A DNA stretch of 34,220 bases from Alcaligenaceae bacterium (GTDB lineage: Bacteria > Pseudomonadota > Gammaproteobacteria > Burkholderiales > Burkholderiaceae_B). Below are positions 13,781 to 27,581 of the stretch, one piece after another. Under the pieces are notes generated by a model. That model did no database searches. It was not told where the DNA came from and was given only the letters and a program-made list of their open reading frames with translations. Numbering within the stretch: position 1 is the first letter of the stretch; each line of letters starts with the position of its first letter. The DNA is taken from NCBI GenBank assembly GCA_030452305.1, contig JAKDMO010000005.1:1-34220 (forward strand), read 5' to 3'. Position numbers and translations under genes: made by a program.

Positions 13781-14943
13781 CGCCGGCCGTACCTGGCGAC
13801 GGCGCCGATCAGGATCAGCAGTGCAATGGCAATCAGGATGGCGCCGCTGACGCCCCACAGGCTCGAAGTCGTCACCGATACCCGCAGGTCGCCGTTGGCC
13901 GATTGGCCTTGCGATCGCGCATGCAGGCTGACCATATAGTCGCCCGCCAGCGATTGGGACGAAGGGGTGATGTGGGCCTGGACCTCTGTGGTCTTGCCCG
14001 GTTCGATTTGCTCGATGCGCGCGGGTTCAAACGCCAGCTTCCAGCCCGAGGGTGCGGTACCGCTGAGTGCGATGCCGGTGGCGGCGACCGTGCCGGTATT
14101 GGCGATTTCCAGCGGCACGGTGGATGTTTCCTGGATCTGGGCGCTTGCGCTCATCAGACCGTCGCGCCCGGACAGGCTGAGCTTGGGCTGGCCGGTCAGT
14201 TCAAGCTTCAGGTCAGCGGTGGCCGAGGTGCCGTTGCTGGCGACCGTCACAGTGATTGGATGGGTGCCCGTGGCGGCATTTGCGGGTGGGCGCACGTGCA
14301 GCTTTACGGTCTTGGATTCCCCGGCCTTGATGGGCAGGGCGCTGATCTGCTGACTGCCGTAGCCTTCGGTAAACGAGGTGTCGAAGTATTTTGGCGCCTT
14401 GGCGGCCAGGCTGGCCAGCGCATCCTGACCGCTGTCGTTCTTGATGGTCAGTTGGTAGTCGAACGAGGTTTTGGTCGAGCCGGTCAGCTGGGGCAGATCC
14501 GTCTGGATCGATAGCTTGGGCGGCAACTCGTCGGCCAGGGCAATGTCGATAGGCAGGCTCAGCTTATGCTGGGCGCTGTCTGCGTGCACGACCAGCGTTT
14601 GCGAGCCTTGTGCCTTTTGTTTGGGAATCACCAACTGCAGTTCGACGGACAGGCTGTGGTCCACGCCGGGCATGGCGGAAGCCACGGGTTGGCCGCCGCC
14701 CAGCAACGTGGCCTTCCAGCCGTCCGGCACTCCGCTGACGCTGAGCGCAAAACGCTCGGCCGCAGTGTTGCGGTTGCGTAGATGCAGGGTGATACTTGAT
14801 GTCTGGCCGGGCTGTAGTGTGACCGAAGGATAGTCGCTGGTCAGAAAGATACCGGGTATCGCGGGTTCGGCGGCAAGTGCGGGGGCTGCGGCATTCAGAA
14901 GCAGTGCGCAGGCGGCAAAGAGTAGGGCAAAGGCTTTGTGCAT
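13777..14943 (-). CDS. NEW3-domain protein with signal peptide and C-terminal anchor
   Basis: A 388-aa protein. The signal peptide (residues 1-25, MHKAFALLFAACALLLN, ending ALAAE) is followed by about four immunoglobulin-like beta domains, the NEW3 type seen in COG1470 proteins: VTLQPGQTSSITLHLRN, IKAGESKTVKLHV, IEPGKTTEVQAHI. A C-terminal membrane helix (GVSGAILIAIALLILIGAVA) and a basic tail YGRR complete it. The bulk should face the periplasm. AGGAG lies 12 nt before the ATG at 14943. It is the first gene of a unit with an ABC ATPase and permease, with ATGA overlaps. NEW3 proteins beside ABC-2 exporters are a recurrent arrangement; this one may capture or guide the exported substrate. Function is unproven. 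Confidence 0.82.
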   Translation of the reverse strand: MHKAFALLFAACALLLNAAAPALAAEPAIPGIFLTSDYPSVTLQPGQTSSITLHLRNRNTAAERFALSVSGVPDGWKATLLGGGQPVASAMPGVDHSLSVELQLVIPKQKAQGSQTLVVHADSAQHKLSLPIDIALADELPPKLSIQTDLPQLTGSTKTSFDYQLTIKNDSGQDALASLAAKAPKYFDTSFTEGYGSQQISALPIKAGESKTVKLHVRPPANAATGTHPITVTVASNGTSATADLKLELTGQPKLSLSGRDGLMSASAQIQETSTVPLEIANTGTVAATGIALSGTAPSGWKLAFEPARIEQIEPGKTTEVQAHITPSSQSLAGDYMVSLHARSQGQSANGDLRVSVTTSSLWGVSGAILIAIALLILIGAVARYGRR

Positions 14944-15000
14944 AATGGCTTGAGTCTCCTTTTGTTCTTGTAGTGACCCGGTTTTGCCCTTTTGAGTTTC

Positions 15001-15014
15001 ATACAATAATGTAT
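15001..15014. promoter_or_regulatory. AT-rich palindrome ATACA-ATAA-TGTAT
   Basis: A perfect 5-bp-arm inverted repeat with a 4-bp centre, followed by a further TGTAT at 15021-15025, lies 58 bp upstream of the NEW3 gene start in an AT-rich patch. The size and symmetry suit a TetR-, GntR- or MarR-type operator for the NEW3/ABC unit. No regulator gene is adjacent. Confidence 0.35.
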
Positions 15015-15068
15015 CGTTTTGTATCAATATGGGCTCTGCTCAAGCTCACACGAGCTCAAATTAATAGA

Positions 15069-15098
15069 ATTGAGAACAATTCGCATTTCTGTTAATCT
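15069..15098 (+). promoter_or_regulatory. Fur box overlapping the tonB promoter
   Basis: The 19 bases at 15069-15087, ATTGAGAACAATTCGCATT, match the common Fur-box form AATGAGAATTATTCTCATT at 15 of 19 positions. They cover a possible -35 hexamer TTGAGA (15070-15075), with a -10-like TTAATCT at 15092-15098. Fur bound to iron here would block tonB transcription, the normal regulation of TonB systems. Confidence 0.6.
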
Positions 15099-15124
15099 TT
15101 CGGCTTTCCCCGATTGTGCTTTCT

Positions 15125-16048
15125 ATGTTGCGCGGACCCGATTCCCGACTGCCGATACTGAAGATCGTTGCGGCATGCATGGCGGTGGGCTTGCATTTGG
15201 CAGTCCTCGCGGCGGTCTTGCTGCCTGACGAGACCACAGTGTCGCTGGGCGCGCCGGAATCCGAAGTCATTCATTATGTAGAGCTTGGCCCGGCACCGGA
15301 ATCCGAGGTTGCGCCGGCGGCCGCTGAGCCCCAAACAGAGGAAACGCCGGAACCCGAGCCGGAAGCCGTCGAACCTCCTTTGCCGGAGCCCGAACTCGTC
15401 GAGCCGCCCCCGCCGGAACCCATACCTGAGCCCGAGCCGATCCCAGAACCCGAGCCTATACCCGAGCCCGAAGTTGTCGAACAGCCGCCCGAGCCGGAAA
15501 TCGAGATTGCGAAGCCGATTCCGGAACCTGAAATCCCGGAACCGATTTCCGAGCCAAAGCCGGAGCCCAAGCCAACGCCGAAACCGCAGCCGAAGCCAAA
15601 GCCGCAACCAAAGCCAACGCCGAAACCGCAACCCAAGCCGCAGCCCAAACCGGCCCCAGTCAAACCCGTCGTCAAGGCTGCGCCAGCTGCTCCGGCCGCG
15701 CAGACATCCAGCGCGCCGCCCGCCGTCCAGCCGCCGCGAGGCGCACCCGTTACCGTCGATCCGGATCGCCCGCGTGTAATCGGGCGTGTCGATTATCTGG
15801 GTCGTCGCCCCCGCCCGGTCTATCCGCGCGCCTCGCAGCGGCGGGGCGAACAGGGCAGGGTGGTGTTGCGGGTACTGATTTCGCCCGAGGGCCGGGTGGC
15901 CGATGTAAAAGTGCGGACGTCCTCCGGGCACGAACGCCTGGATGATGCTGCGATTGATGCCATACGCGTGGCGCGCTTCAAGCCTTATACCGAAAACGGC
16001 GTGGCCTACAAGGCGCTGGTGGACATCCCTTTCGATTTCGTTTTATAG
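15125..16048 (+). CDS. tonB: TonB energy-transducing protein
   Basis: About 307 aa. There is a short cytoplasmic N-terminus, one membrane anchor (about residues 10-34, ILKIVAACMAVGLHLAVLAAV), then a long periplasmic proline-rich spacer. The spacer is first acidic (EPEPIPEPEPIPEPE, nucleotides about 15340-15540) and then basic (PKPQPKPKPQPKP, to about 15660). The C-terminal TonB domain has YPRASQRRGEQGRVVLRVLI and a final DIPFDFVL. TonB passes proton-motive-force energy from ExbB-ExbD to outer-membrane receptors for siderophores, heme or B12. The ATG at 15125 is chosen; a GTG three codons upstream is also possible and neither has a good ribosome site. It is followed by exbB after 9 nt. Confidence 0.95.
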   Translation: MLRGPDSRLPILKIVAACMAVGLHLAVLAAVLLPDETTVSLGAPESEVIHYVELGPAPESEVAPAAAEPQTEETPEPEPEAVEPPLPEPELVEPPPPEPIPEPEPIPEPEPIPEPEVVEQPPEPEIEIAKPIPEPEIPEPISEPKPEPKPTPKPQPKPKPQPKPTPKPQPKPQPKPAPVKPVVKAAPAAPAAQTSSAPPAVQPPRGAPVTVDPDRPRVIGRVDYLGRRPRPVYPRASQRRGEQGRVVLRVLISPEGRVADVKVRTSSGHERLDDAAIDAIRVARFKPYTENGVAYKALVDIPFDFVL

Positions 16049-16057
16049 GACACAGAG

Positions 16058-16951
16058 ATGCTGGATCTGATGACTGAAGCCCTGCAGGTGCTCGCACAAG
16101 TGGCGGGGCCCGATACGGCAGGCGCGCTTGCACCGACCGTGTCTGCAGCGGCCCCCGCTGTTGCAGCCAGTGCGGCTGCCACACCGACCGCACTGGCCGA
16201 TCCGGCAGCTCTGGGCGCAAGTGCGGGCGGCATGCTGCATTTTGTCTCGCAAAGCGATCTGGTGGGCAAAAGCCTGTTCGTATTCCTGCTGTTGATGTCC
16301 CTGGCGAGCTGGTATCTGATCCTGGCCAAGGTGTTCACGCATCTGCGCATTCGCAGGCGATCGGCGAAGTTCCTCAATGAATTCTGGGCGGCCAGTTCGC
16401 TGGAGCAGGTTGAAAACGAGATTGCCACGCATGGCGCCACGGAGCCTTTTGCGCATCTGGCCAGCCATGCCATCTACGCACGCAAGCACCATGCAAAGTA
16501 TGGTGCGCTGAAGCTTGAGGAAAGCGGTACGACGGCAGCCTTTGTGACGCGCACCATTCGCAAGGTGATCGATGAGGAAACCGCCAGGCTGGAAAATGGC
16601 TTGACCGTGCTGGCCTCGGTCGGGTCCACGGCGCCTTTCGTCGGCCTGTTCGGCACGGTGTGGGGGGTCTATCACGCCTTGCTCAGCATCAGCATGAGCG
16701 AAGGCGTGACGATCAACCGCATTGCCGGTCCGGTGGGCGAGGCATTGATCATGACGGGCCTGGGCCTGGCCGTCGCGATCCCGGCGGTGCTGGCCTATAA
16801 CGGCTTCGTGCGCAGCAACCGCGTCTATCTGGCGCGCCTGGATGCCTTTGCGCACGATTTGTTTACCTTCCTGTCCACCGGTCAGCAGGTGTCCGATGGC
16901 GTGCACGAGCGTACACGTCCCGTCAATCTGAGCAGTGCGCGCGGAGCCTGA
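16058..16951 (+). CDS. exbB: biopolymer transport protein ExbB
   Basis: A 297-aa inner-membrane protein of the MotA/TolQ/ExbB family. The Ala/Pro-rich N-terminal region (residues about 10-55) is longer than in many ExbBs. Three membrane segments follow: about residues 70-90 (KSLFVFLLLMSLASWYLI), about 185-210 (FVGLFGTVWGVYHAL) and about 225-250 (EALIMTGLGLAVAIPAVLAY). A large cytoplasmic loop lies between the first two. GSTAPFVGLFGTVWG is the family signature. With ExbD it forms the proton channel that energises TonB. Confidence 0.95.
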   Translation: MLDLMTEALQVLAQVAGPDTAGALAPTVSAAAPAVAASAAATPTALADPAALGASAGGMLHFVSQSDLVGKSLFVFLLLMSLASWYLILAKVFTHLRIRRRSAKFLNEFWAASSLEQVENEIATHGATEPFAHLASHAIYARKHHAKYGALKLEESGTTAAFVTRTIRKVIDEETARLENGLTVLASVGSTAPFVGLFGTVWGVYHALLSISMSEGVTINRIAGPVGEALIMTGLGLAVAIPAVLAYNGFVRSNRVYLARLDAFAHDLFTFLSTGQQVSDGVHERTRPVNLSSARGA

Positions 16952-16952
16952 T

Positions 16953-17420
16953 ATGGCCTTTGGCAGCTTTGATTCCAAGAGCTCGACACATACCATGTCG
17001 GAAATCAATATGGTCCCGCTGATCGACGTCATGCTGGTGTTGTTGGTGATTTTCATCATCACCGCGCCGCTGCTTACTCACTCGATCCGGATCGATATTC
17101 CGCAGGCCACTGCCCAGCCTGTCGAGCAGGAGCCGCGCGTCGTGGATCTGGCTATCGATGCCGATGGTGTCATGTATTGGAACGACCAGCGCATGGAACC
17201 CGAGGACGTCGCCCAGCAGATGATGGTCGAAGGGCGGATGGATCCGCAGCCGGATGTGCGCATTCGCGCGGACCAGGATACACGCTATTCGGTGCTGGCC
17301 CAGGTGATGGCCGATGCGCGCAAGGCGGGCCTGAAGCGCCTGGGTTTCGTGACGCGGCCCGGGCAGGCCGACGCCTCGGGAGCCCCCTCTTTGCCAGAGG
17401 TTCCACCCGCGCAGCAGTGA
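16953..17420 (+). CDS. exbD: biopolymer transport protein ExbD
   Basis: A 155-aa protein with a short cytoplasmic N-terminus and a single membrane helix (about residues 20-43) carrying the essential proton-carrying aspartate Asp25 in VPLIDVMLVLLVIF. A periplasmic domain with the ExbD/TolR fold follows (DLAIDADGVMYWN ... IRADQDTRY). The start ATG is 1 nt after the exbB stop, with GGAG as ribosome site, so translation is coupled. The final 15 residues are Pro/Ala-rich. Confidence 0.94.
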   Translation: MAFGSFDSKSSTHTMSEINMVPLIDVMLVLLVIFIITAPLLTHSIRIDIPQATAQPVEQEPRVVDLAIDADGVMYWNDQRMEPEDVAQQMMVEGRMDPQPDVRIRADQDTRYSVLAQVMADARKAGLKRLGFVTRPGQADASGAPSLPEVPPAQQ

Positions 17421-17440
17421 TTTGGATATAGAATCACGGC

Positions 17441-18115
17441 ATGCGAGTTCTAGTTATCGAAGACGATACGACGCTGGGCCATGCCTTGCAGGAATTTTTG
17501 GTCGATCAAGGCTATGCCGTCGATTGGCTGAAGGAAGGCGACCGTGTCGAGGGGGCGGTCGCGGGTCAGGACTATGACCTGCTGTTGCTGGATCTGAATC
17601 TGCCCGGTCTTAGCGGGCTCGAAGTCCTGCGCCGCCTGCGTGCCGGGGGCTACCAGATTCCGGTGTTGATCCTGACGGCTCGCGATGGGCTTGAGGATCG
17701 CGTGGCCGGCCTGGACGCCGGTGCCGATGATTATGTGACCAAGCCCTTCGAGTTGCCTGAACTGGCGGCGCGCGTGCGCGCCTTTGCCAGGCGGCGCGTC
17801 GGGCAGGCACAGACTGTTCTGGAAGTCGGCCCCCTGTCCTTTGATACGGTGGGCCGCCAGATTCGCGTCCATGGCAAGCGCCTGGCCCTGTCCGTGCGCG
17901 AGCTTTCAGTGCTCGAGATGCTGATGGCGCGCCCGGGCCGGGTGGTCACCAAGCAGCAGATCGTCAATTCCCTGTCGGCATGGGATGCGGACTTCAGCGA
18001 AAACGCTGTAGAAGTCTACGTCTATCGCCTGCGCAAGCGTCTGGACGGCACCGGCGCCGGCATTCAGACGGTCCGGGGATTCGGCTATCTGCTCGATACC
18101 GACAGTGCCGACTGA
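17441..18115 (+). CDS. OmpR/PhoB-family response regulator
   Basis: A 224-aa two-component regulator. The receiver domain (residues 1-118) has the acidic pocket Asp8/Asp9, the phosphorylation site Asp51 in LLLLDLNLPG, Thr79 and Lys101 in DDYVTKPFE. The C-terminal winged helix (about 125-220) has LSVRELSVLEMLMARPGRVV, the recognition region SENAVEVYVYRLRKRL and the wing IQTVRGFGYLL. It resembles the QseB/TctD group. It starts 20 nt after exbD and its end overlaps the kinase start by 11 nt. It probably activates or represses transcription in response to its partner kinase; the targets are unknown. Confidence 0.93.
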   Translation: MRVLVIEDDTTLGHALQEFLVDQGYAVDWLKEGDRVEGAVAGQDYDLLLLDLNLPGLSGLEVLRRLRAGGYQIPVLILTARDGLEDRVAGLDAGADDYVTKPFELPELAARVRAFARRRVGQAQTVLEVGPLSFDTVGRQIRVHGKRLALSVRELSVLEMLMARPGRVVTKQQIVNSLSAWDADFSENAVEVYVYRLRKRLDGTGAGIQTVRGFGYLLDTDSAD

Positions 18116-19214
18116 AATAAAACCCGGCGGCCTGATCGAGCGCCTGATTCCGCGCGGCTCGCTCGCCCGGCATTTGGTGCGCAGGCTGATGCCGGCGGTG
18201 TTGCTGCTGGTGCTGCTGGATCTGGGTGTGACCTGGATCATGACGATCAAGATCGACCTGGAAACCTGGCTGCTGCGCGATATTTTCTGGCTGATGGTCC
18301 TCAGCCAGTGTTTTCTGGTGCTGTTGTTTGCCTGGGTGCTGATTTCGGGCGTAAGGTCGGAGCTGACTTCCATCAATCGACTGGCAGACGATATCCGTCA
18401 GCGTTCGATTGATGACCTGCAGCCACTCGACGAGGCGGGGCTGCCGACCGAGGTGGCGCCGCTGGTGACGCATTTCAATGACTTGCTGCTGCGCCTGGAT
18501 GATTCCATGCAGGCGCAGCGCCGCTTTATCGGCCACGCCGCACACCAGTTGCGCACACCGCTCAGTGGCCTGAAGCTGGAATCCGAACTGATGCTTGGGC
18601 GCCCCTTGCCCGACGATGTCCGCGAGCGGGCCGAGCGCATCAAGTCAGTTACGGATCGCATGATCCGCATGGGCCAGCAGTTGCTGGTGCTGGCACGGAC
18701 CGACACCTCGGCCCGGCCGCAGGATAGCTTCAATCGGGTGGATCTGTGCGAGTGGATACGCTATGCCGGCTCGGAATGGTTGGGTACGGCGCGGGCCCGG
18801 CATATTGAATTGGAGTTGATTGCGCCGGATCACCCGGTCTGGATCGACGGCGATAAGGTGCTGTTGGGCGAATTATTGAGCAATCTGATCGACAATGCCT
18901 TGCGCTACGGCGTCGGTGCCACCGGGATCACCCTGCGCGTCACAGAGAATCCACCAAGCTTTTCCGTAGCGGATGATGGCCCCGGCATCGATACCGAGGA
19001 TGTCGAACGCGTTTTCGAAGCCTTTTACCGCTCGCCGCGCGCCGCCTCCGGCGGATCGGGCCTGGGTATGGCAATTGTGCGCGAGATCGCCCGCGCCCAT
19101 GGGGCATGGTGGAAGCTGGCCAGCCGTCCGGACTTTCCGGGCACGCGCGTGGCGATTGTCTTTCCGGGCCCACGACGCGGGGCGGGCCTGACGAGGTTCG
19201 AGCAGGCGGCATGA
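18105..19214 (+). CDS. sensor histidine kinase with minimal periplasmic loop
   Basis: A 369-aa membrane kinase starting at GTG and overlapping the regulator gene by 11 nt. Two membrane helices (about residues 28-47 and 60-80) are separated by only about 12 residues, so there is practically no periplasmic sensor. A HAMP-like region (about 81-135) leads to the H-box with His147 in HAAHQLRTPLSG. The ATPase domain has the N box LLSNLIDNALRYG, G1 DDGPGID, F box RVFEAFY and G2 GSGLGMAIV. This layout is that of intramembrane-sensing kinases, which respond to membrane or partner-protein state. The stop codon overlaps the start of kup by 4 nt, so the kinase and the potassium transporter are translationally coupled. 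Confidence 0.9.
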   Translation: MPTEIKPGGLIERLIPRGSLARHLVRRLMPAVLLLVLLDLGVTWIMTIKIDLETWLLRDIFWLMVLSQCFLVLLFAWVLISGVRSELTSINRLADDIRQRSIDDLQPLDEAGLPTEVAPLVTHFNDLLLRLDDSMQAQRRFIGHAAHQLRTPLSGLKLESELMLGRPLPDDVRERAERIKSVTDRMIRMGQQLLVLARTDTSARPQDSFNRVDLCEWIRYAGSEWLGTARARHIELELIAPDHPVWIDGDKVLLGELLSNLIDNALRYGVGATGITLRVTENPPSFSVADDGPGIDTEDVERVFEAFYRSPRAASGGSGLGMAIVREIARAHGAWWKLASRPDFPGTRVAIVFPGPRRGAGLTRFEQAA

Positions 19215-21103
19215 CCCAGGAACATGTTGCGCTTTCCGGCGATCATTCGCCTCGGGCCGCGATGCTTGTCGGGGCGCTGGGCGTGGTCTTTGGCGATATC
19301 GGGACCAGCCCGCTCTACACCATGCGGGTGGCGCTGTCCGGCGCGGTACGGCCCGATGCCCAGCACATCCTGGGCGTACTGTCGATGCTGTTCTGGCTGC
19401 TGGTGGGCGTCGCGTCGATCAAGTATGTCATCTGTATCCTGCGGGCCGACAACCGGGGCGAGGGCGGTACGCTGGCGCTGATGGAGTTGGCGGTGCGCGG
19501 CCGGCGCGGGCGAGCGCGCGCATGGCTGGTTACGCTCGGCCTGATCGGGGCATGCCTGTTTTATGGCGATAGCATGATTACGCCGGCGATATCGGTCCTG
19601 TCGGCGGTGGAGGGCATCGGCATCGTTTCGCACACGCTCGATCCGTGGGTGATCCCAATTTCAATATTGGTCCTGCTGGCGCTCTTTTTGCTGCAGTCTC
19701 GAGGTACTGGAACGGTGGGCCGTCTATTCGGGCCGATCATGCTGGTGTGGTTCCTGGTGCTGGGTGTGCTGGGAGCCTGGCGCATTATTCAGGTACCTGA
19801 AGTCATCGCAGCGATCAACCCTTTGTGGGCGCTGCGTTTCATCGGGGACGCGCCCTGGGAGACCTTTGTGTTGCTGGGTGCCCTGGTGCTGGCACTGACG
19901 GGGGCCGAGGCCTTGTATGCCGATATGGGGCATTTCGGGCGCCCGGCCATTCGGCGTGCCTGGTTCGGCCTAGTGGCGCCTGCCCTGGCCCTGTGCTATT
20001 TCGGGCAGGGCGCTTTGCTGCTGCACGACCCCTCGGCAATCCGCAGTCCGTTTTTTCTGCTGGCACCGCCCTGGGCCTTGGTGCCGCTGGTGGCCCTGGC
20101 GACCCTGGCCACGGTGATTGCCTCGCAATCGGTGATCTCTGGTGCGTTCTCGGTGACTCGCCAGGCGGTACAGCTGGGCTTCTGGCCGCGCATGGTGATC
20201 CAGCATACGTCGATCCGCGAGGAAGGCCAGATCTACATGCCTCGCGTGAATTGGCTGCTGCTGGGTGCGGTCCTGGTCCTGATCGTATCCTTTGGCACGT
20301 CCGACAGCCTGGCACAGGCCTATGGCTTTGCGGTGACGGGCACCATGTTGATGACCTCGCTGCTGTCTTTTGCCGTATTGCCACGCGATTCGCATGGCCT
20401 GCGGCGCTTTGCCTGGCTGGTGCTGGTCAGCACATTTCTGGTCGTGGATGTGCTGCTGTTCTCGTCCAATACGCTAAAGATGTTCGAAGGCGGCTGGCTG
20501 CCTTTGCTGGTGGGGCTTGCCCTGCTGACGCTGATGGTGACCTGGAAGCAGGGCAGGCAGACCATCCACGACAATCTGTCCGGCGATCATCAGCCCTTGA
20601 GCGATTTCATGGCATCGATCGAGCAGTATCCACCCACGCGCGTGCCGGGCACTGCGGTGTTCATGAGCATGCTGGTCGGGACGGTACCGCCCGCGCTGTT
20701 GCACAATCTGAAGCACAACAAGGTCCTGCATGAGCAGGCCTTGTTCCTGACGGTAGAGAGCGCCGATGTGCCCTACGTGCGTTTTGATGAACGCTACCGG
20801 CTGGAGCGCATCAGCCGCAGCAGTTGGCAGGCTGTAGCACGCTGGGGCTTCAAACAAGAGCCCAACGTCCCCCAACTGCTCGAACAGATTGCCCAGGACT
20901 ATCCTGAACTGAATCTGGATCCGATGCAGGTATCGTATTTCCTGTCACGCCAGACGGTGATCGTCGTGCGCAAGCAGCCGGGGCGGCTGGGTTGGCGGCG
21001 GTATCTGTTTGCATTCATGGCACGCAACGCCACACGCACGACGCGTTTCTACCAGATTCCACCCAATCGGGTCGTTGAAATGGGCATGCAGATGGAGCTC
21101 TGA
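19211..21103 (+). CDS. kup: Kup-type potassium uptake protein
   Basis: A 630-aa transporter of the KUP/HAK/KT family, the usual length. The N-terminal signature is ALGVVFGDIGTSPLYTMR, and the next region has LRADNRGEGGTLALM. The conserved FYGDSMITPAISVLSAVEG precedes about ten further membrane segments, with GAEALYADMGHFG in the middle. A cytoplasmic C-terminal domain of about 180 residues includes VPGTAVFMS and YFLSRQT. Kup carries K+ into the cell with protons and is most important at low pH. The ATG at 19211 is chosen because it gives an ATGA overlap with the kinase gene; the longer reading from 19106 lies inside the kinase. It closes the tonB-exbBD-regulator-kinase-kup series. Confidence 0.96.
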   Translation: MTQEHVALSGDHSPRAAMLVGALGVVFGDIGTSPLYTMRVALSGAVRPDAQHILGVLSMLFWLLVGVASIKYVICILRADNRGEGGTLALMELAVRGRRGRARAWLVTLGLIGACLFYGDSMITPAISVLSAVEGIGIVSHTLDPWVIPISILVLLALFLLQSRGTGTVGRLFGPIMLVWFLVLGVLGAWRIIQVPEVIAAINPLWALRFIGDAPWETFVLLGALVLALTGAEALYADMGHFGRPAIRRAWFGLVAPALALCYFGQGALLLHDPSAIRSPFFLLAPPWALVPLVALATLATVIASQSVISGAFSVTRQAVQLGFWPRMVIQHTSIREEGQIYMPRVNWLLLGAVLVLIVSFGTSDSLAQAYGFAVTGTMLMTSLLSFAVLPRDSHGLRRFAWLVLVSTFLVVDVLLFSSNTLKMFEGGWLPLLVGLALLTLMVTWKQGRQTIHDNLSGDHQPLSDFMASIEQYPPTRVPGTAVFMSMLVGTVPPALLHNLKHNKVLHEQALFLTVESADVPYVRFDERYRLERISRSSWQAVARWGFKQEPNVPQLLEQIAQDYPELNLDPMQVSYFLSRQTVIVVRKQPGRLGWRRYLFAFMARNATRTTRFYQIPPNRVVEMGMQMEL

Positions 21104-21123
21104 ACCAGAGCCCCATCAATCGT

Positions 21124-21522
21124 TCAATTCATTTCGCCGGCTGGAATCGTGATGGTGGTTTCGCGCAAGACGCCACCCGAATCGACCGAGCCCTGTACGC
21201 GTGTATCGGGGCTGGTCATCAGTGTGATGCATCCGTCGCGTTGTTCGGCAGGCAGCGCATTGCAGCGCTGTGTACGATCCATCTTTGCGGAATTGGGATC
21301 CGGGGCCGTCAGCTTGCCGCGTCGCGAGGCTTCAAGCGCCGCACCTGCTTCGCGCAAGCAGGCTTTTTGATCGATGCCCGGTGTTTTGTGGCAGCGCTGG
21401 ACGTCAGCCTGATATTGCGCCTGGGACTCACCTGCGGCCATGGACGGAGGGCTTGCCAGCAAAGCCATACCCAGCCCTGTAATCAGGGCCGACTGCTTCA
21501 ATATTGATTGAATTTTCTGCAT
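21124..21522 (-). CDS. small secreted protein with two C-x10-C pairs
   Basis: A 132-aa protein with a signal peptide (residues 1-30, ending SMAAG) and a mature part of about 100 residues. Its four cysteines come in two equally spaced pairs, Cys44/Cys55 and Cys87/Cys98, each C-x10-C, suggesting two disulfide-bonded hairpins in the periplasm. The segment KACLREAGAALEASRRG and the ending GSVDSGGVLRETTITIP resemble conserved hypothetical secreted proteins that I have seen in Burkholderiales, with no known function. The start is supported by AGGAG 8 nt upstream. It lies downstream of the Mrp operon on the same strand and converges with kup. Confidence 0.75.
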   Translation of the reverse strand: MQKIQSILKQSALITGLGMALLASPPSMAAGESQAQYQADVQRCHKTPGIDQKACLREAGAALEASRRGKLTAPDPNSAKMDRTQRCNALPAEQRDGCITLMTSPDTRVQGSVDSGGVLRETTITIPAGEMN

Positions 21523-21540
21523 AACGGGACTCCTTGTTTC

Positions 21541-21558
21541 AATCGGCAGATGCCGATT
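21541..21558. promoter_or_regulatory. perfect 18-bp palindrome upstream of the secreted-protein gene
   Basis: AATCGGCA-GA-TGCCGATT has perfect 8-bp arms around a 2-bp centre, 18 bp before the start codon and directly before the ribosome site of the minus-strand gene. It could be an operator or an RNA hairpin in the leader. No T-run follows, so it is not a standard terminator for the Mrp operon. Confidence 0.45.
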
Positions 21559-21619
21559 CGTGAGTAAGGTGTAAAACCAGTTTAGGGGTTTTCCCGTAAG
21601 AAAAATGTAATCAAATGGT

Positions 21620-21931
21620 TCATTCGTTGCTGCGATCGCGATGAATCGCGCTTTGCATCAGCAGAATTGCTGTAACGGGCGACGTCATAATCAGCAACAA
21701 GGTGATCAGGAATTCGTGAAAAATCGGGCGATTCTGCATGGCGCTTGCGACCAGTGTCGCGGCCAGCAGTACACAGAATGTCCCCATGGTCGTACCCAGG
21801 GTCGGGGCATGCATGCGCTCGTAGAGTGTGCCCAGGCGCAGCAACCCCACTGATCCGAGTAGGGTCAGGACCCCGCTGATAACGAGCAGTATCGATGCGC
21901 TGATGCTGACCCACAGTGGCAGATCGTTCAT
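21620..21931 (-). CDS. mrpG: Mrp cation/proton antiporter subunit G
   Basis: A 103-aa protein with three membrane helices. It carries the MnhG/PhaG signature GSVGLLRLGTLYERMHAPTLG (residues about 27-47, written here in full as its 21 residues minus none would exceed a short motif; key part is LRLGTLYERMHAP), followed by TMGTFCVLLAATLV. The start at 21931 gives an ATGA overlap with mrpF. It is the last gene of the operon. The subunit is needed for assembly and activity of the Mrp complex. Confidence 0.92.
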   Translation of the reverse strand: MNDLPLWVSISASILLVISGVLTLLGSVGLLRLGTLYERMHAPTLGTTMGTFCVLLAATLVASAMQNRPIFHEFLITLLLIMTSPVTAILLMQSAIHRDRSNE

Positions 21932-22206
21932 GGCTCGATGACCTCGCCGCGCAACAGGAACTTGGCCAGGGCCGCCGATCCGACGAAACCGAACAGCGCG
22001 ATCATCAAGGCGACGTCGAAATACACGCCTTCTTCGAAGCGCAGGCCCAGTACCAACAGGATCAGCATGCCATTGATGTAGACCGTGTCCAACGCCAGGA
22101 CGCGGTCGGGCGCCGAGGGGCCGCGTACCAGGCGGATCGCTGCGCAGGCCAGTCCCAGGGAAAAACACAAGAGGGCGAAGGCGCTCGCCCAAGAGAGCAG
22201 AGTCAT
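21928..22206 (-). CDS. mrpF: Mrp cation/proton antiporter subunit F
   Basis: A 92-aa protein with three membrane helices. RLVRGPSAPDRVLALDTV is the MnhF/PhaF signature, with the conserved Pro-Asp-Arg. Its start (22206) overlaps the mrpE stop by 4 nt and its stop overlaps the mrpG start by 4 nt. It is a small membrane subunit of the Mrp complex. Confidence 0.93.
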   Translation of the reverse strand: MTLLSWASAFALLCFSLGLACAAIRLVRGPSAPDRVLALDTVYINGMLILLVLGLRFEEGVYFDVALMIALFGFVGSAALAKFLLRGEVIEP

Positions 22207-22691
22207 TCGAAAATCTCCATCAAAGGCCGTTCGTAGCGTTGTTGGACGGTGTGCCGCCATCCGTCCTCGTCCTTCAGATCCAGAACGTGCAGGGTGAGGA
22301 CGTGTTCGGCCTCGTCGTAGCCCGACCAGACGGTGCCTGGCGTGAAGGTGATGATGCATGCCAGTGCGGCCAGGCCATGGGCGTCGCGCAAGCGTAGCGG
22401 GATATCAACGAATCCGGGTGTCGCACCGGCACGCCCGCCCAGCCAGATCCGCCGGCCGACCGCCACATTCGAGCGAACAATGTCGATGAAGACATCGCGG
22501 ATCAGGCGCAGGGCTGCCAGTGGGCTGGACAGCGAGGCGCGCACCGGGCGCAGGCTGGGTGCCAGCAGGCTGAGGATCAGGGCGATGGCCGAACCCAGTA
22601 CGATTGTTCCGATCGACAGGCTATCGTTGAGGACGATCCACAGGGCGAGCAGCAGGCAGGGCAGTGGAAGGAAGCGCAGCAGGGCCCTCAT
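22203..22691 (-). CDS. mrpE: Mrp cation/proton antiporter subunit E
   Basis: A 162-aa protein. Two N-terminal membrane helices (about residues 5-45) are followed by a cytoplasmic domain with IVRSNVAVGRRIW and the conserved ITFTPGTVW (about 118-126), the MnhE/PhaE signature. The start at 22691 gives an ATGA overlap with mrpD; the longer reading from 22832 lies within mrpD. MrpE supports assembly of the complex. Confidence 0.93.
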   Translation of the reverse strand: MRALLRFLPLPCLLLALWIVLNDSLSIGTIVLGSAIALILSLLAPSLRPVRASLSSPLAALRLIRDVFIDIVRSNVAVGRRIWLGGRAGATPGFVDIPLRLRDAHGLAALACIITFTPGTVWSGYDEAEHVLTLHVLDLKDEDGWRHTVQQRYERPLMEIFE

Positions 22692-24325
22692 GGCGAGACC
22701 TCTGCGGGGCGTGGGCGCCGGGTGTCCTGGTGCAGGACGGCCTGTATATAGTATTGCGGTCTGTCCAGATAATAAGCCGTGTCCTCCAGGTAGGCCATGG
22801 CCGGGCCTGCCTTCCAGGTCAGGGCGATGCATGCGCCCAAGAGCACGATGACCGGCGTCGCCTCACTGAGGCGCAGTCGCGGGATCTTGATTTGTTCAGG
22901 TATCCAGAACAGCCGCGCACCGCTGCGGCTGAGTGCGATCAGGCAGACAAAGCCAGAGCCCAGCATGGCCCCCACCAATAGCCAGACGCTTGAGGTCGGT
23001 ACTCCGTTTTCAGCAGTATTCAGGGCTGCGGACAGCAGGGAGAATTTTGCGACAAAGCCTGAAAGCGGCGGCAAACCGATGATCAGCAGTGAGCAGGCAA
23101 AGAAGCTCAGCCCCAGGAATGCCATGGCGGCCGGCAGCGCGACGCCCACGACTTCGTCGGATAGGCCTCCGTCGTCCGGGTCATCCAGATCGAACGATTC
23201 CAGGCTGATCGCCAGCAGGTCGGCCCCGAAAGTCTGTGTGCGGCTGACCATTTCGAGCACCATGAACAGCGCACCGAGTGCCAGGACTGAACTGATCAGG
23301 TAGTACAGGGCGGGGCCGGTCAGTGCCACCCCGGGCATGCCGAGCGCTGCGAGCAAGGTGCCCGAGGACACAATAATGGCGTAGGCGGCAATCCGTTCGA
23401 CGTGCTGGCTGGCGAGCATGCCCAGCGTGCCGAAGGCCAGCGTGGCGATCCCGGCGGGGAACATCCAGTCGCCGCCGAAAGCCGCCGGCGCACCGGCCGG
23501 CAGCAGCAGTGCCCCGATGCGCAGCAGGGCATAGATGCCGACCTTGGTCATGATGACGAACATGGCCGCCACGGGCGTGCATGCCTGCGTGTAGGCGTTC
23601 GGCAGCCAGAAATTTACCGGCCATGCCGCCGCCTTGATCAGGAAGGCGACCCCCAGAATGGCTGCGGCCGCATCGAACAACTGGCGATCGGCGGTTGACA
23701 GGGTATGCACACGAATGGCCAGATCGGCCATGTTCAGGGTGCCGGTCAGGCCATAGATCATGGCAATCGCGATCAGCAGCATGAACGAGGCGATCAGGTT
23801 GACCGCGATGTAGTGCATGCCCGCGCTGACGCGCCGCATACCCGAGCCATGCAGCATCAGGCCATAGGATGCGGTCAGCAGGATTTCAAAACACACGAAC
23901 AGGTTGAACAGGTCACCGGCGAGGAACGCACCATTCAGACCCATCAGCAGTAATTGGAACAATGAGTGGAAATGCGCGCCCGCGCGATCCCAGCGCGCGG
24001 TCGAGTAGATCCAGCAACATGCCCCGAGCAGGCTGGTGAGGCTGAGCATCAGCGCCGACAGCCGATCGACCACGATGACGATGCCAAAGGGCGCCGGCCA
24101 GTCGCCCAGCAGGTAGACGCCCACTCCGCCTGGCCACATGCTGTGGTCGGCGCTGCTCGTGGCCTCGAGCAGGCTGAGTGCGACGACGATCTGCAGGATC
24201 AGGGCGACTGCGGAAATCACCAACCGGGGCTTGCGCTGGGTGTCGCGCAGCAACAGCATCCCCGCTGCGGCAAGCAGCGGAATCAGTACCGGCATGACCG
24301 GAAGGTGGTTGCCCCATGCAATCAT
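22688..24325 (-). CDS. mrpD: Mrp cation/proton antiporter subunit D
   Basis: A 545-aa protein with about 14 membrane helices, homologous to the NuoL/M/N proton-translocating subunits of complex I. The key membrane glutamate is Glu147 in LFVCFEILLTASYGL. A lysine in the discontinuous-helix region lies in GVAFLIKAAAWPVNFWLP, and PVAAMFVIMTKVGIYALLR continues the family pattern. With MrpA it forms the ion-translocating core that exchanges Na+ or K+ for protons. It overlaps mrpC and mrpE by 4 nt each. Confidence 0.95.
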   Translation of the reverse strand: MIAWGNHLPVMPVLIPLLAAAGMLLLRDTQRKPRLVISAVALILQIVVALSLLEATSSADHSMWPGGVGVYLLGDWPAPFGIVIVVDRLSALMLSLTSLLGACCWIYSTARWDRAGAHFHSLFQLLLMGLNGAFLAGDLFNLFVCFEILLTASYGLMLHGSGMRRVSAGMHYIAVNLIASFMLLIAIAMIYGLTGTLNMADLAIRVHTLSTADRQLFDAAAAILGVAFLIKAAAWPVNFWLPNAYTQACTPVAAMFVIMTKVGIYALLRIGALLLPAGAPAAFGGDWMFPAGIATLAFGTLGMLASQHVERIAAYAIIVSSGTLLAALGMPGVALTGPALYYLISSVLALGALFMVLEMVSRTQTFGADLLAISLESFDLDDPDDGGLSDEVVGVALPAAMAFLGLSFFACSLLIIGLPPLSGFVAKFSLLSAALNTAENGVPTSSVWLLVGAMLGSGFVCLIALSRSGARLFWIPEQIKIPRLRLSEATPVIVLLGACIALTWKAGPAMAYLEDTAYYLDRPQYYIQAVLHQDTRRPRPAEVSP

Positions 24326-24672
24326 TGGGGATGCTCCTGGCCGTCCACATGGTCGGTGTCGGTCAGCCCGCGCGAGGCCAGCAGGACCACCAGAAACAGT
24401 GCCGTCGTGGCAAAGCCGATAACGATGGCGGTCAGCACCAGGGCCTGGGGCAGGGGATCGGCGTAGTGGGCGGCGTCAGCGGCCCAACGGGTATTGATGA
24501 CGGGCGGAGCGTCCATGCGGATGCGGCCCATCGAGAATATGAACAGGTTGACGGCATAGGACAGTAGCGACAGCCCCATAATGAACTGAAAGGTGCGCGG
24601 GCGCAGCAGCAGCCATATGCCTGAACCGGCCAGCACCCCGATTGCCAGAGCCAGAATCCATTCCATGGTCAA
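24322..24672 (-). CDS. mrpC: Mrp cation/proton antiporter subunit C
   Basis: A 116-aa protein with three membrane helices, homologous to NuoK. The signature runs FIMGLSLLSYAVNLFIFSMG (residues about 30-49), with the later DPLPQALVLTAIVIGFATTA (about 72-91). It sits between mrpAB and mrpD with 4-nt overlaps on both sides. Confidence 0.95.
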   Translation of the reverse strand: MTMEWILALAIGVLAGSGIWLLLRPRTFQFIMGLSLLSYAVNLFIFSMGRIRMDAPPVINTRWAADAAHYADPLPQALVLTAIVIGFATTALFLVVLLASRGLTDTDHVDGQEHPQ

Positions 24673-27581
24673 GTCCTCGCTTCAACATTGGGTTTCGGGG
24701 CGGCCGGCAGTTTGCGATAAAAGCGCAGCGACTGGTGGGCCAGGGCGATGACCATCAACACGGTGGCGCCCACCACCAGCATATACACACCGATATCGAA
24801 CAGCAGGACCGTGGACAAGTGGATGGCGCCGACGATCGGCAAGACCAGATCCACGCTGTAGGCCGACAGCAGTGGCTGCCCGACCCACCAGACGCTCATC
24901 GCTGTGGCTCCCGCCAGCAACAGGCCCAGCGCGATCCAGATCTGCGGGCGGATCAGCGGCCGCGCCTCGACCCACTGCACCCCGCCCACTACATACTGCA
25001 GGATGATTCCCGTGGCCATGATCAGGCCGCCCACAAAGCCGCCACCCGGCAGATTGTGGCCACGCAGCAGGAAATAGAGCGAAATAAGGGTGGAGACCGG
25101 CAGCAGCAGGCGCACCAATACGGCCGGAATGCGCAGCAGGCCTTCGGGCAGCGGTGCCTGGACATCGGGCTCGACAAACAGTTCAGGTCCGGGGTTGCTC
25201 AGGGTGGATCGGCGCAAAGTCAGCGGAACGGTGATGGTTTCGTCGGGTGGACGGAAACGGCGCAGCAGCGCGTAGACGCTGAGTGCGACGATGCCCAGCA
25301 CGGTGACTTCGCCGAAGGTATCGAATGCCCGGAAATCCACCAGGATCACGTTGACGACGTTGGCTCCGCCACCCAGCGGCATGGCCTGTTGCACGAAAAA
25401 TCCGGATATGCCGTCGGGCGCGGGCCGGGTCATCATGACGTAGGCCAACAGGGCCAGGCCCCCGCCACCGAGTATTGCGACCCCCATGTCGCGAAAGCGC
25501 CTCACGAGGGTGCGCAGCGCTGTCGGGCCCGGGTATTCATCGATGCGCGGCGGTAGCCAACGCAGGCCCAACAGGATCAGCACGACGGTGACGACCTCCA
25601 CCGCCAGTTGTGTCAGGGCCAGATCGGGGGCAGACAGCCAGGCGTAGGTGATACTGGTGACCAGGCCGACCGTGCCGGCCAGCATGAGGGATGCGGCGCG
25701 GTGGTATTTCGCCTGGTAGGCTGCCGTCACCGCGCAGGCGCCGCCTGCCAGCCACATCAGGCCAAACGCCAGATGGGGCGGTGTGCCGGGCTGCTGCGCC
25801 CACCAGCCCGTGTGCAACAGGGGCAGGGCCGCCACGATCAGGGTCGAGGCGACCAGCAGCAGAACCTGCGCCTGCAGGCGCTGTGTCTGCAGAATCCCCA
25901 GCAGGCCGGCCGACCAGGCATCCAGCGATTCGAGCAGGGTTTCGAAAGCGCGTCGGCCGTCCAGATAGTGGATCAGGGGCGCGGATCCGGGGGCCCTGCG
26001 GTCGTGGCCGCGCAGCAGCGCGTAGATCAGGATGCCCCCCGCCGTCGCCAGCAGGCTCATCATCAGCGGCAGCGTCCAGCCGTGCCAGACGTGCAGGTCA
26101 TAGGATGGCAGGTGGGGGCCGAGCAGCGATTGCATGACCATGTGCAGCACCGCACCAAGCGTGGCACCCGGCAGAACCCCCACGAGCAGGCAGATCAGTA
26201 CCAGGACGGCGCAGGGAATCAGCATGCGCAGCGGGGGCTCGTGAGGGGCCCGTGGCAAATCGTGGGCAGGCGGCCCAAAGAACACTTGCATGATGAATCG
26301 CAGGGAGTAGGCGACGCTGAAGGCGCTGGCTATGACGGCGATGGTGGGCAAGCCCCATCGGCTGGCCCAGTGCCCGGTGATGAAAACCGTTTCCGCAAAG
26401 AACATTTCCTTGGAAATAAAGCCGTTCAATAGCGGCACGCCGGCCATGGCCATGGCGGATACCACGGCCAGCGTGGCGGTCAGCGGCATGGCGCGGCGTA
26501 GGCCCGACAAGCGCGTCAGGTCGCGGGTGCCGGTCTCGTGATCCACGATGCCCGCAGCCATGAACAGCGAGGCCTTGAAGGTCGCGTGGTTGACGATGTG
26601 AAAGACCGCTGCGACCAGGGCCAGGGGGCTGCTCATGCCCAACAGCAGGGTGATCAGCCCGAGGTGGCTGATCGTCGAGTAGGCCAGCACACCCTTCATG
26701 TCGCGCTGGAACGTTGCGGCGTAGGCGCCCAGCATCAAAGAGCACAAACCTGCGCCGCCTATCGTCCAAGTCCACCAATCGGTGCCGGCGAAAATCGGCC
26801 AGAATCGGGCCAGCAGGAATACCCCGGCCTTGACCATGGTGGCCGAGTGCAGATAGGCCGACACCGGTGTGGGGGCGGCCATGGCATTGGGCAGCCAGAA
26901 ATGGAAGGGAAACTGTGCGCTCTTGGTCAGTGCGCCGACCGCCAGCAGGATCACCAGTATGGGGTACCACTTGTGGTCACGAATCAGGCTGCCCGAGGCC
27001 AGGACCGTGTCCAGATCATAGCTGCCCGCAATATGCCCGATGATCAGCATGCTGGCCAGCAGGCAGAAACCGCCGCCGCCCGTCACCAGCAGGGCCATGC
27101 GTGCGCCGCGCCGCGCATCCATGCGGTGGTGCCAGTATGCGATCAGCATGAAGGACGACAGGCTGGTGAGTTCCCAGAAAACCACCAGCTGGATCAGGTT
27201 GCCCGACAGCACGACCCCCAGCATGGCGCCCATGAAGCTGAGCAGGAATGAGAAAAAACGAGGGGCCGGATCCTGATCCGACAGATAGTAGTGGGCATAC
27301 AGGGCAATCAGCGCGCCCATGGCCGTGATGATCACGCCGAATAGCCAGGCATAGCCATCCATGCGTAATGTCAATTCGACCCCCATGGTCGGGATCCACG
27401 GCAACTGGTATTTCAGCACGCTGTGCGCGATGATGTCCGGCGTCTGCACCAGCACCAGCGCCAGGCATGCCAGGGCGGTCAGGCCCGCCAGCCAGGCCCC
27501 GGCGCGGCGCGCACTGGTGGGCAACAGCGCGGCGATCAGGCTGCTGACAAAGGGCAGGGCGAGGGTCAGAACCAAATACAT
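24669..27581 (-). CDS. mrpA: fused Mrp cation/proton antiporter subunits A and B
   Basis: A 970-aa protein with about 20 or more membrane helices. Residues about 1-500 are the NuoL-like part, with the essential glutamate Glu137 in LVVFWELTSLSSF and the lysine-bearing TKSAQFPFHFWLPNAM. The middle part is the MrpA-specific NuoJ-like extension (VEVVTVVLILLGLRWLPP). About residues 820-955 form an MnhB domain (RGHNLPGGGFVGGLIMATG), normally a separate subunit. The A-B fusion is typical of proteobacterial group 2 Mrp operons such as pha1 of Sinorhizobium. The complex extrudes Na+ or K+ in exchange for protons and supports alkaline and salt tolerance. No strong ribosome site precedes the ATG. Confidence 0.95.
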   Translation of the reverse strand: MYLVLTLALPFVSSLIAALLPTSARRAGAWLAGLTALACLALVLVQTPDIIAHSVLKYQLPWIPTMGVELTLRMDGYAWLFGVIITAMGALIALYAHYYLSDQDPAPRFFSFLLSFMGAMLGVVLSGNLIQLVVFWELTSLSSFMLIAYWHHRMDARRGARMALLVTGGGGFCLLASMLIIGHIAGSYDLDTVLASGSLIRDHKWYPILVILLAVGALTKSAQFPFHFWLPNAMAAPTPVSAYLHSATMVKAGVFLLARFWPIFAGTDWWTWTIGGAGLCSLMLGAYAATFQRDMKGVLAYSTISHLGLITLLLGMSSPLALVAAVFHIVNHATFKASLFMAAGIVDHETGTRDLTRLSGLRRAMPLTATLAVVSAMAMAGVPLLNGFISKEMFFAETVFITGHWASRWGLPTIAVIASAFSVAYSLRFIMQVFFGPPAHDLPRAPHEPPLRMLIPCAVLVLICLLVGVLPGATLGAVLHMVMQSLLGPHLPSYDLHVWHGWTLPLMMSLLATAGGILIYALLRGHDRRAPGSAPLIHYLDGRRAFETLLESLDAWSAGLLGILQTQRLQAQVLLLVASTLIVAALPLLHTGWWAQQPGTPPHLAFGLMWLAGGACAVTAAYQAKYHRAASLMLAGTVGLVTSITYAWLSAPDLALTQLAVEVVTVVLILLGLRWLPPRIDEYPGPTALRTLVRRFRDMGVAILGGGGLALLAYVMMTRPAPDGISGFFVQQAMPLGGGANVVNVILVDFRAFDTFGEVTVLGIVALSVYALLRRFRPPDETITVPLTLRRSTLSNPGPELFVEPDVQAPLPEGLLRIPAVLVRLLLPVSTLISLYFLLRGHNLPGGGFVGGLIMATGIILQYVVGGVQWVEARPLIRPQIWIALGLLLAGATAMSVWWVGQPLLSAYSVDLVLPIVGAIHLSTVLLFDIGVYMLVVGATVLMVIALAHQSLRFYRKLPAAPKPNVEART

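Follow-up and report, generated by a model that had tools for sequence, protein, structure and literature searches.

Among described systems, those closest to the locus treated here are KdpD-KdpE with kdpFABC, the TctD-TctE and QseB-QseC pairs, and intramembrane-sensing kinases of the BceS type. The E. coli gene kup has been described as constitutively expressed (PMC5458449); the arrangement reported below therefore differs. Separate kinases with transmembrane, GAF and DHpCA parts are mentioned for cases where KdpD is split, in passages of PMC11018627 that name no kup beside them. Among the titles and abstract beginnings listed by searches of the open-licence PMC literature, none was recognised as reporting a two-component system that shares an operon with kup. 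Here, we present a window of 34,220 nucleotides from an Alcaligenaceae bacterium (contig JAKDMO010000005.1), in which three genes follow each other on the plus strand with overlapping ends and starts. These are an OmpR-type, TctD/QseB-like response regulator (17441-18115), a histidine kinase with a probable TctE/QseC-type core and no periplasmic 2CSK_N domain (18105-19214), and kup, which encodes a K+ importer of the KUP family with 630 residues (19211-21103). The explanation that we favour, with middling confidence, is that a TctDE/QseBC-type system which has lost its outer sensor regulates the operon that it heads and, through it, Kup.

A preliminary description of this DNA had proposed the order regulator-kinase-kup, and the overlapping frames as well as the Pfam domains agree with it. 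The regulator consists of Response_reg (PF00072, 3.9e-28) and Trans_reg_C (PF00486, 8.2e-21); in the kinase only HisKA (PF00512) and HATPase_c (PF02518) score above cut-off, no sensor domain being among the matches. Kup contains K_trans (PF02705, 4.6e-174) and K_trans_C (PF22776, 5.2e-46) and reaches 558.2 bits with the KUP model TIGR00794 (cut-off 539.6), while it stays below the cut-off of the E. coli-type low-affinity Kup model NF008015 (749.9 vs 883 bits). Gene starts were picked by alignment. The kinase frame opens with a GTG, which is overlapped by the regulator for 11 nucleotides, comprises 369 residues and ends with the TGA at 19212-19214; the kup ATG occupies 19211-19213. As had been claimed, stop and start share an ATGA (19211-19214), and this junction was compared among relatives. 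For kup, the earliest start of the frame in a mechanical list of open reading frames is 19106; K_trans homology begins at residue 19 counted from 19211, and the starts of related Kup proteins align near 19211.

The gene order exists as described, is conserved and predates the genus. For the comparison, 101 genomes were searched: the window's family contributed 61 (its own included) and other families of the order 40. The 61 comprise ten from the window's genus and one or two for every one of 42 further genera; many of the genomes compared are metagenome-assembled. An orthologue of the kinase is present in 51 of the 61 family genomes and kup lies directly downstream in 37 of these 51; the order is hence not unique to this strain. 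In five of the kinase-bearing genomes kup is located elsewhere and in nine no kup was found (in G030 the kinase is cut by the contig end); the ten family genomes without the kinase split into six with and four without a detected kup. Upstream, exbB adjoins in 44 of the 51. A Kup of this type (at least 57% identity) occurs in 39 of the 61 family genomes, and all 39 carry the kinase as well. For the 40 genomes of other families, no kinase exceeded 42% identity among the matches listed, and nearly all of these matches begin after query residue 40; exceptions are a match from residue 16 in a longer kinase of 468 residues (G089) and one from residue 29 in a short kinase (G066). Locus L156 of G066, a genome of a different family, encodes a short TctE-like kinase of 349 residues, and the sole Kup match lies far off on the same contig. 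Named loci, 32 in number, come from Castellaniella, Pollutimonas, Candidimonas, Allopusillimonas and other Alcaligenaceae. In 21 of them kup is found behind the kinase and in 11 it is not, some of the latter being on short contigs; because strains may partly coincide, these numbers and the genome counts are not additive. In a larger set of 268 family genomes, the kinase was detected in at least 208 (E ≤ 1e-75) and a Kup of any type in at least 203 (E ≤ 1e-100). A search for a replacement gene after the kinase in ten kup-less loci gave no common gene on the same strand. By eye, open reading frames resembling the Mrp genes of the window come next in six of the ten kup-less loci examined.

A quick tree of 57 Kup rows placed all 37 kinase-adjacent kup genes in one clade (Shimodaira-Hasegawa-like approximate likelihood ratio test, 99). 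The only others nested there are the relocated copies of G022 and G029, and the kup genes of the roughly 44-54% type form a separate clade; on this tree, the kup genes in this place share common descent. On the kinase tree, kup adjacency requires at least eight changes; the adjacency labels of ten further genomes of the genus g43 and of G271, G272 and G273 were confirmed. With one Kup clade and at least eight changes of adjacency, the pairing of kup and kinase is old, and kup has repeatedly disappeared from this place or been relocated.

The kinase had been described as possessing two membrane helices with about 12 residues between them. A hydrophobicity reading gave the same value of about 12, and an AlphaFold2 model, computed from a 40-row orthologue alignment (mean predicted local distance difference test score 81.5), contains helices 20-48 and 57-99 separated by eight residues. 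Membrane span 1 is part of helix 20-48 (18162-18248), which contains Asp 39 (D39) and Trp 44 (W44); span 2 is at the start of helix 57-99, namely residues 57-80 (18273-18344) with Gln 68 (Q68). According to Pfam and AlphaFold2, the protein thus has the two membrane helices and lacks the extracytoplasmic domain, as do intramembrane-sensing kinases. 2CSK_N (PF08521) is missing from the window kinase and from four further short orthologues scanned; the long g43 orthologue scanned (L116:4464-5981) carries it (2.2e-22). The length of the stretch concerned is 49-51 residues in 64 orthologues, 162-167 in ten longer paralogues and 180-199 in 11 g43 members. In g43, all 11 genomes have the full-length kinase in the order exbD-regulator-kinase, none of the 11 loci has kup within about 1.5 kb after the kinase, and any Kup at E ≤ 1e-100 occurs in at least two of the 11 genomes. 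In the tree of the kinase core, the long forms constitute one clade near the base, with G039 (short, no kup) outside at weak support (92/62); the branches of G023, G031 and G039 are long. A tree constrained to one clade of short forms was not rejected (approximately unbiased test, p 0.34; 73 rows, 12 long-branch or near-copy rows having been dropped). One single loss of the periplasmic domain would be the simplest reading of these trees, not a proven one. The best NCBIfam model of the regulator is TctD (221.9 bits, under the cut-off of 337), those of the kinase are QseC and PmrB (QseC 189.6 bits, under the cut-off of 475); judged by these model scores and by the same architecture in the long orthologues, the kinase core may belong to the TctDE/QseBC lineage. 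At the kup-less locus L117 (G054), the kinase frame contains internal stops and is possibly decaying.

Gene overlaps are common across bacteria, and the ATGA by itself is unremarkable because exbB and exbD, as listed, as well as regulator and kinase overlap too. The conservation of kup behind the kinase, unlike the overlap alone, goes beyond chance. Where kup is adjacent (37 genomes), an ATG and the kinase stop overlap in 18, in 11 cases exactly as ATGA; kup starts 1-15 nucleotides past the stop in 14 and 17-135 nucleotides away in five. The pairing energy of the region before kup with the anti-Shine-Dalgarno sequence has a median of -3.0 kcal/mol and is -4 or lower in 14 of the 37. Since start spacing and pairing vary, translational coupling is likely in most genomes, not in all of them. 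With a moderate Shine-Dalgarno pairing of its own (-6.6 kcal/mol), the window kup may also recruit ribosomes by itself.

The regulator is preceded by a predicted -10 element TATAGAAT (17427-17434, plus strand), whose TAGAAT hexamer begins 12 nucleotides before the ATG. A TANNAT hexamer beginning 12 or 13 nucleotides before the regulator ATG occurs in 42 of 49 genomes (missing in G023, G031, G035, G045, G048, G051 and G054), and none of these 42 has a Shine-Dalgarno-like string in the last 20 nucleotides. The anti-Shine-Dalgarno pairing of the regulator reaches -4 kcal/mol in two of 49 genomes, and in seven of 50 in a partly overlapping set with another choice of starts. In a control with the 50-regulator set, TANNAT was located at -12/-13 in 41 of 50 regulators versus 3/41 exbB, 0/41 exbD, 0/51 kinase, 0/31 kup and 0/34 small-gene starts; pairing of -4 kcal/mol or lower was found in the same set for 24/41 exbB, 39/41 exbD and 29/34 small-gene starts. 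In all TANNAT and motif counts, related genomes are treated as separate. Due to the spacing of 12-13 nucleotides, transcription is predicted to start at the AUG; this suggests that the regulator has its own promoter in the gap behind exbD and is read from a leaderless mRNA. Further upstream, the TCAG motif TCAGNNNTGTAAC was found once each in 31 of 189 loci (some of which may be one strain twice). Its distance to the regulator ATG, computed for 30 loci, is 62-66 or 73-75 nucleotides with nothing between; these two positions lie about one helical turn apart. A 15-nucleotide version, GTCAGNNNTGTAACG, was found once each in nine of 14 genomes, and seven of these nine matches are at this locus. 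The TCAG motif is a candidate activator site, perhaps the regulator's own, in part of the family only.

Gene order, overlaps, the absent domain, the conserved promoter element and the common descent of kup are read from the sequences, and the explanation that we favour builds on them as follows. A TctDE/QseBC-type pair, its kinase stripped of the periplasmic ligand-binding domain, would head its own operon, with kup as third and translationally coupled gene. The kinase would read a signal originating within the membrane or at its cytoplasmic face. A link of this signal to K+ supply, to turgor or to the energization of the membrane would be the most plausible one; K+ or turgor is a plausible signal. 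The regulator would act on its own promoter, so that the levels of regulator, kinase and Kup would jointly follow the strength of the signal. Translation would enter at the leaderless AUG and be passed on through the overlapping genes. Kup would be the output of the system and not a needed part of the sensor; in genomes lacking kup, the regulator probably acts on other genes.

Several observations weigh against this explanation. A consensus sigma-70 scan of positions 14900-21600 gave 0 sites (2.0 expected); the -10 element is consequently deduced from conservation and has no -35 box. A reversed control pattern gave seven matches in the same 14 genomes in which GTCAGNNNTGTAACG gave nine; as this genome-wide number barely exceeds the control, it is only the place at the locus that supports the TCAG motif. 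The motif is exact in only 14 of 49 regulator upstream regions, with three more at one mismatch, and its 15-nucleotide form is absent from the entire window genome. It was not found upstream of the relocated kup genes, where the closest sites have 3-4 mismatches, and no exact copy was found before mrpA in the window and 10 loci (best 2-5 mismatches; mrpA itself was not matched at L209 and L210); a site with two mismatches 15 nucleotides upstream of the window mrpA is within chance. Finally, 14 of 51 genomes have kept regulator and kinase although kup is not next to them; G030, cut by a contig end, is one of the 14.

The neighbourhood of the three genes is as follows. On the plus strand, they are preceded by a tonB-like gene of uncertain start (15116-16048; TIGR01352 tonB_Cterm, 4.3e-22; order conserved), an exbB/tolQ-like gene (16058-16951; PF01618, 1.3e-30) and an exbD/tolR-like gene (16935-17420; PF02472, 2.2e-32), which ends 20 nucleotides before the regulator in the window genome. 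Convergent to kup on the minus strand are a small gene of 132 residues (21124-21522), which has no Pfam or NCBIfam match and is conserved with and without kup, and an Mrp-type Na+/H+ antiporter cluster (21582-27581). By eye, the start of the 132-residue protein resembles a signal peptide. In the cluster, a Pfam scan of the two open reading frames 22688-24325 and 24669-27581 matched PF00361, PF13244, PF20501 and PF04039; the remainder is assigned by position. The cluster is a neighbour of the two-component/kup system by position. A conserved element resembling ATCGTAT/CACGTATCAT precedes mrpA in most loci seen.

A two-component system beside kup is not confined to this family. The pair had been proposed to differ from KdpDE, which holds: membership in KdpDE was rejected, as a Pfam scan of the kinase detected no KdpD domain (PF02702), Usp or DUF4118. 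Neither KdpD nor TrkH was found in the window's genome, which is 92.8% complete. A KdpD search covering 37 family genomes was positive in 10; for the 26 among these 37 that have adjacent kup, it was negative in 18. Other two-component genes can also stand before kup: a short DUF4118 kinase, in some cases with GAF as well, and a KdpE-like regulator precede kup genes of the other clade. An order-wide search for such a kinase of the short-KdpD type matched at least 141 of 399 genomes, of which 30 loci were fetched; kup lies directly after the regulator in 15 of 15 loci with an open frame of less than 600 residues versus two of 15 with a longer one. Loci of this kind in Burkholderiales are L137:761-4866, L122, L123, L211-L221, L225, L230, L234 and L237; the two kinases scanned contain DUF4118 and no KdpD domain. 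Since an unrelated kinase thus also precedes kup, the pairing of kup with a two-component system recurs. A further regulator-kinase pair, with a kinase of HAMP type, lies about 600 nucleotides before a second kup at L131:237-4887 (G037).

The preliminary description had also suggested that Kup could act as co-sensor. In that case the kinase would sense the conformation or flux of Kup within a complex in the membrane, much as BceS does with BceAB. Two membrane helices with almost no loop, the tight coupling of the kinase gene to a transporter gene and the BceS precedent (PMC8534201) would fit. To the 14 of 51 kinases kept without adjacent kup and the eight or more adjacency changes comes a comparison of 47 of the 51 genomes, 36 with and 11 without adjacent kup (six with no kup found, five with kup elsewhere; relatives are not independent). 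Genomes G030, G036, G051 and G054 were excluded because a gene was cut or missing, the kinase was the long form or the frame was broken. D39 is kept in 35/36 kinases with and 11/11 without adjacent kup, W44 and Q68 in 47/47. The divergence of the transmembrane region relative to the regulator is about the same in both groups (median 2.19, n = 36, vs 2.15, n = 11; p 0.23), and that of the catalytic part differs only weakly (1.61 with vs 1.51 without; p 0.08). Weaker points of this comparison are that Asp 59 (D59) varies in 2/11 kinases without versus 1/36 with adjacent kup (kept in 9/11 and 35/36), and that G022 and G029 still hold a kup of the same clade elsewhere. The kinases kept without adjacent kup and their similar membrane helices speak, indirectly, against a dependence of the kinase on Kup. 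An obligatory co-sensing Kup is unsupported and was rejected as a necessity on this basis; we consider a co-sensing Kup very improbable, whereas a facultative contact of kinase and Kup is possible.

An unlikely, if less remote, explanation is that the system serves TonB-ExbB-ExbD or the envelope, with kup as a passenger at the operon end. It is in line with exbB being the commoner neighbour (44 of 51 genomes; kup, 37 of 51) and with the order exbD-regulator-kinase at kup-less loci, including 11/11 with the long kinase; yet an order inherited by descent can last without shared function, in most genomes a separate promoter is predicted for the regulator behind exbD, and all 39 genomes (of 61 in the family) that have a Kup of this type carry the kinase. 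Economical packing, with kup expressed at constant level and a coupling devoid of regulatory meaning, seems quite improbable to us: although overlaps are frequent in this operon, E. coli kup is constitutive according to PMC5458449, and the window kup has its own moderate Shine-Dalgarno pairing, a similar pairing exists with an unrelated kinase (15/15 short-KdpD loci fetched) and adjacency has been kept across much divergence, with Kup down to 57% identity.

If the explanation by a controlled operon is true, a whole family controls K+ uptake by a switch other than KdpDE, many of its genomes being without detectable KdpD. As kup would be tied to a switch with an antenna-less sensor, the cell may adjust K+ uptake by a switch that is not the textbook one. 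More tentatively, and doubtful as a whole, a KdpDE-independent K+ route can be envisaged: a citrate-type kinase would have lost its outer domain, been repurposed to a K+ or turgor cue on the membrane or cytoplasmic side and brought kup under its control in an operon with a leaderless start and translationally chained genes, while a second, KdpD-type kinase would have reached the same pairing with kup in other Burkholderiales. The short and long orthologues would offer a natural before/after pair for a kinase working without its sensor domain, and the need of the kinase for Kup is directly testable, since among related genera the kinase occurs both together with kup and in its absence.

How does the locus compare with the known systems? 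With KdpD-KdpE and kdpFABC it has in common a two-component system tied to a K+ importer; the kinase, however, is without KdpD, Usp and DUF4118, and the transporter at the locus is Kup. The operons with a short DUF4118 kinase, a KdpE-like regulator and kup are likewise three tightly packed genes with kup last; their order is kinase-regulator-kup, their kinase is of KdpD type and their tree-placed Kup proteins belong to another clade. TctD-TctE and QseB-QseC are close in that the regulator scores best with TctD and the kinase with QseC/PmrB, and in that the orthologues of one genus are full length, the one scanned having 2CSK_N. In contrast, 2CSK_N is absent from the window kinase, and the annotated neighbours are tonB/exbBD, kup and Mrp instead of tricarboxylate transport genes. 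The intramembrane-sensing kinases of BceS type, as defined in PMC8534201, share the two helices, the minimal loop and a transporter gene in the operon, whereas the kinase presented here was apparently derived via domain loss in a betaproteobacterial TctE-type kinase, and its partner is a KUP permease, often missing, and not an ABC exporter.

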